DNA of 64,000 nucleotides from Halomarina halobia (GTDB taxonomy: Archaea; Halobacteriota; Halobacteria; Halobacteriales; Haloarculaceae), in contig NZ_CP119992.1 in NCBI RefSeq assembly GCF_029338575.1, positions 310,001-374,000 of the forward strand. The letters run 5' to 3'. The notes beneath the pieces are model-generated. The model was not told the DNA's origin and made no database searches. It was given only the letters and a program-made list of their open reading frames with translations. The position numbers were made by a program, and so were the translations under genes. This document shows, one piece after another, positions 4,234 through 57,928 of this stretch (positions within the stretch are counted from its first letter, which is position 1; each line of letters starts with the position of its first letter).

Positions 4234-4256
4234 TGGGACCGCTGAGATTCGAACTC
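4234..4256 (-). repeat. 23-bp copy of the tRNA-Pro 3' end (att-like scar)
   Basis: These 23 bases are identical to 4365-4387, the last 23 bases (T-loop half, acceptor strand and discriminator) of the tRNA-Pro gene 131 bp away, in the same orientation. Tyrosine-integrase elements use tRNA 3' ends as attachment sites and leave such a second copy. Only about 108 bp separate the two copies, so no element remains between them. Confidence 0.7.
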
Positions 4257-4331
4257 GTCGAGACGGTCCTGCTCGCTCGCTGCGCGGGCTGCGACTCGTC
4301 TGCTCGAATCCGCGCGCTCGTAACCGCTACA

Positions 4332-4356: not shown

Positions 4357-4364
4357 AGAATCAG

Positions 4365-4437
4365 TGGGACCGCTGAGATTCGAACTCAGGTCCGACGCAC
4401 CCCATGCGCCGAGGATACCAGGCTACCCCACGGTCCC
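4365..4437 (-). tRNA. tRNA-Pro (anticodon GGG)
   Basis: Read on the minus strand, the 73-nt gene folds as a standard cloverleaf. Acceptor GGGACCG pairs with CGGTCCC (discriminator A). The D-arm is GGGT...ATCC, the anticodon stem GGCGC/GCGTC encloses loop ATGGGGT, and the T-arm contains GAGTTCGAATCTC. The anticodon GGG reads proline CCC/CCU. No intron and no encoded CCA. A TATA-like CTTAA near 4472-4478 lies about 38 nt upstream. The 3' end is duplicated at 4234-4256. Confidence 0.95.
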
Positions 4438-56158: not shown

Positions 56159-56911
56159 ATGACCACCGTCGCCGTCCTCTGTGACCCGCCGCGCCCCGGT
56201 CTCGTGCTGTCGTCGCTCGTCGAGACGTCGCCGCTGACCGCCGAGGAGGTCAGCGACCTCTACGCCGCGATGCTGGGCGACGTCGTCCGGGCGGTCGAGT
56301 CGAGCGGCGGGGAGTTGCTCGTCAACTACCGTCCCGACGAGTCGCTGCCCGGGTCGTTCGCCGACGGTGAGGCGAGCGCCGAGGCGGAGGTGCGGGCCGT
56401 CGTCCGCGGCGCGTTGAAGCGCCCCGACGAGGCGCGCTTCGAAGTGCAGGTCGGGCAGACGTTCGCGGGGCGAGCGGGGAACACGGCGACGCACCTGCTC
56501 GACCGGGAGGGCGTCACCACCGTCGCCGTGGTCGAACCGAGCGCCGCCTTCCTCGCGCGATCGCACGTCGACAACGCGGCGATGAAACTCCGGCGGAGCG
56601 AGGTCGTCCTCGGCCCTACGACGCGCGGCCGGGTGTACTACGCCGGGTTCGCCGGGACCATCGACTACGCCGACGCGTACGCCAGCCCGGCGATAGAGAC
56701 GCTCACCGACCGCGCGCTCGACGTCGGCCACGAGGTGGACTACCTCCCGATGCTGCCCGTGATCGAGACCGGCGAGGACCTCGCGGACGCCCTGACGCTG
56801 CTCCGCGCCCGCCAGCGCGCCGGCCGGATCGTCCCCGAGCGGACGACCGCCGCCCTGGACGAGACCGGGCTGACCGTGGTCGCGGACGACGAACCCCGAC
56901 TGGAGAGATGA
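56159..56911 (+). CDS. DUF2064-like glycosyltransferase-fold protein
   Basis: 250 residues. The start VAVLCDPPRPGLVLSSL, LYAAMLGDVVRAVESSGGELLVNYRPD and VLGPTTRGRVYYAGFAG follow the GT-A-like DUF2064 (cofC-type) pattern, with ETGEDLADALTLLRARQRAGRIVPERT at the end. No DxD is clear, so catalytic activity is uncertain. Ends just before tRNA-Ser. Confidence 0.7.
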   Translation: MTTVAVLCDPPRPGLVLSSLVETSPLTAEEVSDLYAAMLGDVVRAVESSGGELLVNYRPDESLPGSFADGEASAEAEVRAVVRGALKRPDEARFEVQVGQTFAGRAGNTATHLLDREGVTTVAVVEPSAAFLARSHVDNAAMKLRRSEVVLGPTTRGRVYYAGFAGTIDYADAYASPAIETLTDRALDVGHEVDYLPMLPVIETGEDLADALTLLRARQRAGRIVPERTTAALDETGLTVVADDEPRLER

Positions 56912-56951
56912 TCGATAGGTCTTAGGACGGAGCGATCGAACTTCCCATCGA

Positions 56952-57034
56952 GGTGGGGTGGCGGAGTGGACTAACGCGCCTGTCTTGAAAACAGGTGGCC
57001 TACGGCCTCATGGGTTCGAATCCCATCCCCACCG
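56952..57034 (+). tRNA. tRNA-Ser (anticodon TGA)
   Basis: 83-nt gene with a long variable arm (GGCC-TAC-GGCC). Acceptor GGTGGGG/CCCCACC with discriminator G (identity element for serine), D-arm with AGTGGACTA, anticodon loop CTTGAAA in stem CCTGT/ACAGG, T-arm ATGGG-TTCGAAT-CCCAT. Anticodon UGA reads UCA and related Ser codons. A TATA-like GTCTTAGG lies about 30 nt upstream. Its 3' end is copied several times downstream. Confidence 0.96.
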
Positions 57035-57056
57035 TCCTACGGAACGTCGGCCATGG

Positions 57057-57078
57057 CACGCACGAGGCTTCGTGCGTG
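57057..57078 (+). terminator. Hairpin downstream of tRNA-Ser
   Basis: CACGCACGA-GGCT-TCGTGCGTG, a perfect 9-bp stem 22 nt past the tRNA end. Likely transcript end or 3'-processing structure. Confidence 0.4.
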
Positions 57079-57108
57079 GCGCTGGGCGAACGGCGGTAGA
57101 CTGTACAC

Positions 57109-57360
57109 GATGGGTTCGAATCGGACGAGGCGCGCGCACCGAAGAGAGCACGTCTCGGCGCGGTTCGAACCCCATCCCCACGGTGATAGGGTCGACACCC
57201 GCGGTTCGGCTCGTCCGAACCGGGATCGTATCGCGAGGTTTTCGTGGAACGATCGGATTCGAACGTTCGAGCGAGCGCAGCGGGCGAGAGGAGTTCGAAT
57301 CCCGTCTCCACCGTGAACAGGAGAATACCCGCTGTTCGGATCGTCCGGGCTGCGGGATCG
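57109..57360 (+). repeat. Degenerate copies of the tRNA-Ser 3' end
   Basis: Four relics follow the tRNA in the same orientation. 57109-57122 repeats 13 bases of the T-arm (ATGGGTTCGAATC). 57162-57181 repeats the T-arm and acceptor strand (GGTTCGAACCCCATCCCCAC, one change). 57251-57263 has a weak half-copy. 57292-57314 repeats T-arm, acceptor and flank with two changes. The 65 bp after the second and fourth copies are also alike (ACCCGC.GTTCGG.TCGTCCG...GGGATCG), so 57161-57227 and 57291-57360 are two diverged units 130 bp apart. These look like stacked attachment-site scars. Confidence 0.65.
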
Positions 57361-57436
57361 CGCGAGATCGCCGCGAATCGGGGGGCGCGAACGCGAATGG
57401 GAACAACCCTTTAGGTCGGGTGCCGAAGGGTCGGAC

Positions 57437-57778
57437 ATGCGACAACCCGAGGCCGTCCGTCGGGGCAAGACCATCGCGATCCTGCTCCTGGTGATCTTCG
57501 CCCCGGTCGTCATCCTCTCGATCACGCTCGGCTTCCTGCTGGTCGCCGAGGGACTCGTGCTCAGCGAACTCTCGCTGCTCGAGATACTCGAACTCTACCT
57601 CCTCGATCTGGCGCTGTTCGTCGGCGCGGCCTACCTCCTCTACCGGCTGACGCTGCTGTCGGTCGAGCGGCGTCTCCCGGAGGCGGCGGACGACCCGGAT
57701 CGGACGGACGATCGGGGGATAGCCTCCGACGGGGAACGCGAGGCGCGGGAGTCGCCGCCGAACGGCCGCGATCGCTAG
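57437..57778 (+). CDS. Small membrane protein with acidic tail
   Basis: 113 residues; two hydrophobic helices at about 12-38 and 45-75, then a charged tail rich in Asp/Arg/Pro (ADDPDRTDDRG). Seen beside tRNA-linked scars, so it may belong to a former insertion. No family recognised. Function unknown. Confidence 0.6.
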   Translation: MRQPEAVRRGKTIAILLLVIFAPVVILSITLGFLLVAEGLVLSELSLLEILELYLLDLALFVGAAYLLYRLTLLSVERRLPEAADDPDRTDDRGIASDGEREARESPPNGRDR

Positions 57779-57928
57779 GGACGGTGTGAAGCGGTAGACC
57801 GAACGGGGGCGAGCCGACGGTTCTCGGACCGGCGATAGCGACCGTTCGTATTTTACATCTAGGCGTCCAAGTAATTATTAACGGCGTCACCGCCGGTCAC
57901 CCGATTCGGCGGTCGCGCGGAGAGACCC

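Follow-up and report, generated by a model that had tools for sequence, protein, structure and literature searches.

What produced the repeated copies of a tRNA 3′ end behind the tRNA-Ser(UGA) gene of Halomarina halobia, and are they the remains of integrated elements or something else? In the window, which is the whole 64-kb stretch of DNA that was analyzed, the last 22 nt of this tRNA recur twice downstream on the same strand, 130 bp apart (Table 1). The 55-nt blocks from copies 1 and 2 are 76% identical to each other, which agrees with the sequence-only reading of this DNA, where 65-bp units had been described as alike and 130 bp apart. When the 400 nt downstream were shuffled 2000 times with dinucleotide composition kept, the best match to the 22-nt end was 16/22 or less in every shuffle, and elsewhere in the window the end was matched at most 16/22. 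The same reading had counted two good and two partial copies. The good ones stood; the partial ones, at about 57110 and 57252, turned out to be the inverted left arms of two hairpins, which the self-complementary T-loop TTCGAA makes look like direct copies. Behind tRNAs with TTCAAAT the left arm reads ATTTGAA, and it is therefore a reverse complement and not a direct copy.

Table 1. Positions of the repeat units and their parts in the window. Copy scores refer to the last 22 nt of tRNA-Ser(UGA); R1 is the covariance model described in the text.
Feature	Position	Strand	Evidence
tRNA-Ser(UGA)	56952..57034	+	ARAGORN; RF00005, 61.3 bits
Copied segment of tRNA-Ser(UGA), nt ~54-73	57015-57034	+	
Unit 1, trailer stretch with hairpin (GCACGCACGAGGCTTCGTGCGTGGC)	57035..57108	+	Fold and segmentation
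Unit 1, left arm (inverted T-arm)	57109..57120	+	9/12 to reverse complement of copy
Unit 1, core stem-loop, type GACGAGGCGC...GCACGTCTCGGCG	57121..57161	+	ssDNA fold z -2.16
Unit 1, copy of tRNA-Ser 3′ end	57162..57183	+	20/22
Unit 1, R1 match	57103-57183	+	56.4 bits; unit belongs to R1 training set
Unit 2, trailer stretch with hairpin	57184..57251	+	Fold and segmentation
Unit 2, left arm (inverted T-arm)	57252..57263	+	10/12 to reverse complement of copy
Unit 2, core	57264..57291	+	Segmentation; ssDNA fold z -0.54, not significant
Unit 2, copy of tRNA-Ser 3′ end	57292..57313	+	19/22
Unit 2, R1 match	57246-57313	+	54.5 bits; unit belongs to R1 training set
Terminal trailer, resembles the trailer after copy 1	57314..57347	+	Direct repeat D2, 76%/55 nt from 57163/57293
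Weaker unit behind tRNA-Pro(GGG)	4234..4320	-	R1, 24.9 bits, E 9.8e-5 in window; outside training set
tRNA-Pro(GGG)	4364-4437	-	ARAGORN

Read away from the tRNA, a unit consists of a trailer hairpin, a left arm, a core stem-loop, and a copy of the end of the cognate tRNA. The tip of the trailer hairpin is often a sequence such as GCGAACGAACGTGAGC. The left arm usually reads GGATTYGAA; this is the tRNA sequence from T54 into the T-stem in reverse complement. Several types of core stem-loop were found, for example TCAGGGAGCGAACGNAGTGAGCGACCGT, GACGAGACGCGCGCAGCGAAGCGAGCACGTCTCGGCGT, or AGACCGAGGTTCTGCGC...GGTTCTCGGGCGT. The copy spans the host tRNA from about T54 to N73 and ends at the discriminator base. 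Its positions 54-73 agree with the host tRNA at 0.85-0.99, values favored by the selection of copies at 17/22 or better, and other tRNAs agree far less at the variable positions. The left arm is partly cognate too (0.94 vs. 0.52 at position 57 and 0.67 vs. 0.34 at position 63), and of the 28 units aligned in A1, 16 have a C-G and 8 a U-A arm pair at tRNA position 57. MITEs carry terminal inverted repeats related to an autonomous transposon; in the haloarchaeal units inverted arms are present, but they consist of T-arm sequence at an internal position and change from one host tRNA to another.

The units extend far beyond tRNA-Ser(UGA). In the 4.3-Mb genome of H. halobia itself (G000), 18 of the 43 tRNA hits are followed by at least one copy, scored as at least 17/24 within 600 nt downstream; upstream of tRNAs, the best match to the tRNA end reached 16/24. 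A DNA search with the region in eight genomes of the genus, including this one, returned 11 matches besides tRNA-Ser, all of them downstream of other tRNAs (Arg, Gly, Pro, Val, Met, Tyr) and all followed by a copy of that same tRNA's 3′ end. Across four genomes of four families, cognate copies (at least 17/22 within 500 nt downstream) were present behind 93 of 187 tRNAs, compared with 8/187 upstream, where the copies probably mark places at which tRNAs cluster. Examined tRNA by tRNA, six genomes had at least one cognate copy behind 140 of 274 tRNAs, with the first copy starting at a median of 104 nt and later copies following at a median spacing of 116 nt; unit spacing is about 90-140 bp. When the motif was searched for without reference to the host tRNA, also in six genomes, 199 downstream matches were obtained, of which 121 had at least 16/20 to the host end and 73 were exact, against 18 upstream matches, the upstream stretch being only 200 nt in three of the six genomes.

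A covariance model built from 28 units (R1) matched 142 of the 145 sampled genomes of the class, covering 58 of 59 genera and 10 families; G021, G025, and G136 are genomes that lack units. In a sample of the phylum, 22 of 24 genomes of the same order matched, and 4 of 124 others did so weakly (E 1e-4 to 9e-4). ARAGORN called a same-strand tRNA immediately upstream of 29 of the 30 best R1 loci and none at the remaining one (L072). The three named matches of an exact-pattern scan all lay behind a tRNA: tRNA-Trp in Halopiger goleimassiliensis, tRNA-Arg in a Halovenus MAG, and tRNA-Val in Natrinema hispanicum. One R1 match that looked like an orphan unit (G000:C1:972237-972305) was rejected as such, as it adjoins an intron-containing tRNA-Trp-like gene, read by eye; the pattern of this gene is as in the Halopiger tRNA-Trp. 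Within the window, the tRNA-Pro(GGG) gene was called by ARAGORN and is absent from the RF00005 list of the genome.

Which tRNAs carry units differs freely between families, and the state of a given tRNA changes even between congeners. Copy number differed in 22 of 41 ortholog pairs between our genome and G004 and in 19 of 41 between G014 and G008. In 15 and 11 of these pairs, respectively, or 26 of 82 ortholog pairs, the tRNAs were near-identical and the difference had exact junctions, meaning that the first base of one flank aligned, within 2-3 nt, to the base after the copy in the other genome. At tRNA-Cys, our genome is without a unit and G004 has 103 bp composed of a trailer, an arm, a core, and a second CCGGTTCAAATCCGGCCCTTGGCT; beyond these 103 bp, its flank is the flank of our genome (93% over 190 nt). 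The sequence-only proposal that units at a tRNA were gained and/or lost repeatedly is thus borne out by the exact-junction differences. The duplication measures about 20-24 bp, and gain and loss would look alike: exact junctions indicate one or the other and not the direction, because recombination between direct repeats would also yield them, and every such case could be a loss. For tRNA-Cys there is no outgroup state, because the other congeners matched the tRNA alone and not the flank. G276 was considered as an empty-site outgroup for tRNA-Glu(CTC) and rejected, its gene being the paralogous tRNA-Glu(TTC). The tRNA and trailer at this tRNA-Glu(TTC) (L328) are 87% identical over 140 nt to those at tRNA-Glu(CTC) of G014 (L143); judged from this match, trailers appear to be common to paralogous tRNAs.

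Copies within an array differ in age, as had been supposed. Among 63 arrays with at least two copies, the first copy resembled the tRNA sequence more than the last copy did in 31, the last more than the first in 10, and 22 were ties (sign test 0.0015, with arrays common to congeners not independent). Trailer and core differ by 8.8% between congeners and copies differ by 3.9% from their tRNA, as measured in 37 best-matching unit pairs that are partly non-independent and in which the threshold of at least 17/22 trims the tail of copy divergence. The 3.9% is close to half of 8.8%, as one would expect of a copy that is under no special preservation. The earlier reading had held that a ladder found in many genera would be functional and not a scar. 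The presence in many genera was confirmed; function cannot be concluded from it, given that orthologous tRNAs do not keep their units and the copies decay about as fast as the rest of the unit. The ladder behind tRNA-Ser(UGA) is one case of a hairpin repeat that is anchored at tRNAs, occurs across the class, and is rapidly gained and/or lost.

Identical cores were found behind different tRNAs of one genome, each with the arms and the end of its own tRNA. A 40-nt core is common to Glu-CTC and Leu-CAA in our genome, a 56-nt core to Asn and Arg-GCG in G004, a 47-nt core to two Ala tRNAs and Asp in G142, and a 26-nt core to Lys and Arg-CCG in G014, where the trailers are 89% identical too. In unit 2 of Leu-TAG in G014, the left arm is identical to that of Leu-GAG unit 1 and the trailer is 96% identical, and the 3′ copy matches its own tRNA at 21/22. 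These comparisons suggest that trailer, arm, and core may travel together and that the target supplies the end.

For the anatomy, the cognate copy, the class-wide presence, the fast turnover at exact junctions, and the identical cores at different tRNAs, the explanation that we favor, with about even confidence, is a non-autonomous, tRNA-addressed insertion repeat of haloarchaea that duplicates the tRNA tail and spares the tRNA. We infer movement of the unit itself, a duplication that arises as the unit inserts, and DNA folded as a single strand as the substrate. A unit made of trailer hairpin, left arm, and core hairpin would integrate at a tRNA 3′ end or at a copy already in place, and the tRNA segment running from T-loop through discriminator base (about 20 bp, nt 54-73) would then flank it on both sides. 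The tRNA would be left whole, the new copy would be a possible next target so that units stack, and recombination between the direct repeats of about 20 bp could remove a unit cleanly. A candidate enzyme would be a tyrosine recombinase with its crossover in the T-loop or, alternatively, a Cas1/casposase-like integrase with a long staggered cut. Findings that count against the insertion repeat include the extra units behind Leu-TAA, which are distal and not proximal, and the partly cognate left arm, which simple target duplication does not explain. An extension would be that the unit, folded as DNA (or RNA), uses its left arm to pair with the T-arm of the tRNA gene that it targets and guides an insertion that duplicates nt 54-73; both arms would therefore be cognate although cores are identical between loci. 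We regard this arm guidance as quite unlikely; if true, it would mean a form of guided mobility not described before, occurring throughout haloarchaea and matched in bacteria by the rttR repeat of Escherichia coli.

The alternative that survives best dispenses with transposition. Here the tRNA 3′ end and its trailer would be duplicated in tandem by slippage or unequal exchange, cores would spread by ectopic conversion, and template switching in the hairpin would make the arms complementary. Several arrays look as this predicts: the first trailer resembles the last in the Leu-TAA and Glu-TTC arrays, Val-TAC is followed by a tandem pair of identical 119-nt units, and the partly cognate left arm fits a hairpin-templated correction. 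The Val-CAC and Val-GAC units of our genome (L039, L042), and also L248, have the core inverted between its arms, which likewise fits. We nevertheless consider this alternative unlikely, since it leaves unexplained how units arose at so many different tRNAs and why different tRNAs have identical cores in spite of unlike trailers, with the identity stopping at the arms. The Val-CAC stretch of our genome that carries the inverted core was found to align to G004 with 79% identity over 151 nt, which suggests that inversion of the core between the arms can occur and persist.

A second alternative, rather unlikely in our judgement, is that the units are processed from the read-through transcript of the tRNA and act as a regulatory or protein-binding RNA. 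The rtT RNA of E. coli is processed from such a transcript, and the rttR unit, an annotated ncRNA, has the same plan as the units described here. Folding is better for the sense than for the antisense strand in 97 of 110 cases for arm plus core and in 80 of 105 for the trailer (tRNA control, 139/174), and tandem G.A mismatches lie mostly on the sense strand (GA 237 vs. TC 51 in trailers and 303 vs. 19 in cores). The better folding of the sense strand is due, at least in part, to these G.A mismatches, and G.A pairs are stable in RNA and in single-stranded DNA. In whole arm-core hairpins, G.U outnumbers A.C by 164 to 97; together with the better sense-strand folding, this excess is what an RNA role would predict, against the insertion repeat. 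Against an RNA role, G.U was not preferred in trailer or core helices, with G.U:A.C ratios of 77:96 in trailer hairpins and 45:59 in core hairpins compared with 92:20 in tRNA stems, nor was it preferred between orthologous trailers (compensatory 9, G.U 5, A.C 14; pairs not independent). Orthologous arm-core hairpins gave compensatory 6, G.U 11, and A.C 5, again from pairs that are not independent. Whether a given tRNA carries units is not a conserved trait, and the T-rich start right after the tRNA (T fraction 0.31 in the first 12 nt vs. 0.17) may mean that transcription terminates before the arms. In addition, cmscan of 56800-57800 against all of Rfam (E <= 1) returned, apart from the tRNA, only two weak, sub-threshold, and unrelated matches. 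On balance, we lean toward units that act as folded DNA rather than RNA.

The remaining alternative, a scar ladder of conventional integrated viruses or plasmids with one attR per lost element, is what the sequence-only reading had preferred, and it was rejected as very improbable: tRNA-integrating elements can leave copies of just this range, from T-loop to 3′ end, and tRNA integration is common in archaea (PMC8371274), but one uniform unit with its own hairpins stands behind about half of the tRNAs examined, at many different 3′ ends and in nearly all genomes, spacing is only about 90-140 bp, the 8 ORFs neighboring the locus contain no integrase domain, and units were found neither in phage records with one query nor in viral contigs with two exact patterns.

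Among known systems, the closest analogue, by its common plan, appears to be the rttR repeat of E. coli. The rttR/rtT repeats lie at tyrT and correspond to the RtT family of Rfam. In E. coli NC_000913 (L317, 1285800-1287800), copies of the tRNA-Tyr 3′ end (19/25) were located at +154, +332, and +510. Each repeat also has an inverted arm, GGGGAAGGAT, complementary to its copy of the tRNA-Tyr 3′ end and, in reverse complement, matching the T-arm region of tRNA-Tyr at 10/12 (+62, +240, and +418); the portions of the literature covered by our search hold no mention of this arm. Like the haloarchaeal units, the rttR units are in tandem behind a tRNA (178 bp in E. coli), and each closes with a copy of the tRNA 3′ end in combination with an inverted arm. 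Unlike them, rttR is a single locus of three near-identical tandem units, whereas the haloarchaeal units, found class-wide, follow about half of the examined tRNAs, have many core types, and are cognate to each tRNA. The E. coli copy lacks the T-loop TTCGA and continues through CCA, whereas the haloarchaeal copy stops at the discriminator base, and the segment 56800-57800 of the window had no match to the RtT model.

CRISPR arrays and casposons insert beside a fixed leader-like sequence and duplicate the adjacent repeat, and proximal units are younger on average. The haloarchaeal units resemble CRISPR arrays in that proximal units are younger on average and the adjoining repeat would be duplicated in the proposed insertion. 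However, their repeat is a tRNA tail, and their inserts are related hairpin cores common to several loci instead of diverse spacers, so that a constant repeat with non-repetitive spacers was not found; nor was a cas gene present among the 8 ORFs neighboring the tRNA-Ser(UGA) locus.

The SMRs and MITEs of Haloquadratum walsbyi are short (SMR-A about 110 bp), non-coding sequences with inverted repeats, mobile through an unknown or borrowed mechanism; insertion of SMRs leaves no target duplication, and the targets of SMR-A are PATE and IS605-type elements (PMC3119063). The tRNA-tail units are of similar size and also haloarchaeal, but they differ in standing behind tRNAs with a cognate duplication of about 20 bp. 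For tRNA-integrating archaeal elements with tyrosine recombinases, a copy of the 3′ part keeps the tRNA intact, att cores are usually 40-50 bp in the groups covered, and the elements have their own integrase and a fixed att (PMC8371274). The haloarchaeal units also leave a direct copy of the tRNA 3′ part downstream, but they are about 100 bp long, gene-free, and located at many different tRNAs.

No description of units behind haloarchaeal tRNAs was found in the literature searched, which covered few subscription journals. If the reading as a tRNA-addressed insertion repeat is right, about half of the haloarchaeal tRNA genes examined carry a fast-changing hairpin repeat, a natural replicated test is at hand of a short repeat that spreads to many tRNAs and always leaves the tRNA whole, and the rttR repeat of E. 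coli gains a wider setting. 'tRNA fragments' behind haloarchaeal tRNAs are, on their own, no evidence of integrated viruses.

Units were also encountered on plasmids, where one of four queries matched, in three records: one match lies behind a tRNA-Val, one lies within a tRNA cluster, and for the third, on a Haladaptatus plasmid (L069), no tRNA was detected. In the Haloarcula halophila plasmid NZ_CP119561 (L068:1415-1560), a unit-like insertion was seen apparently inside the T-arm of a tRNA-Cys-like gene, which belongs to the plasmid tRNA cluster and is without an ARAGORN call. A large tRNA cluster is present on two haloarchaeal plasmid-like contigs, L068 and L162 (G142:C3), and the stretch L068:2506-3053, with a gene for a TROVE-domain protein, is 79% identical to L162 over 549 nt.
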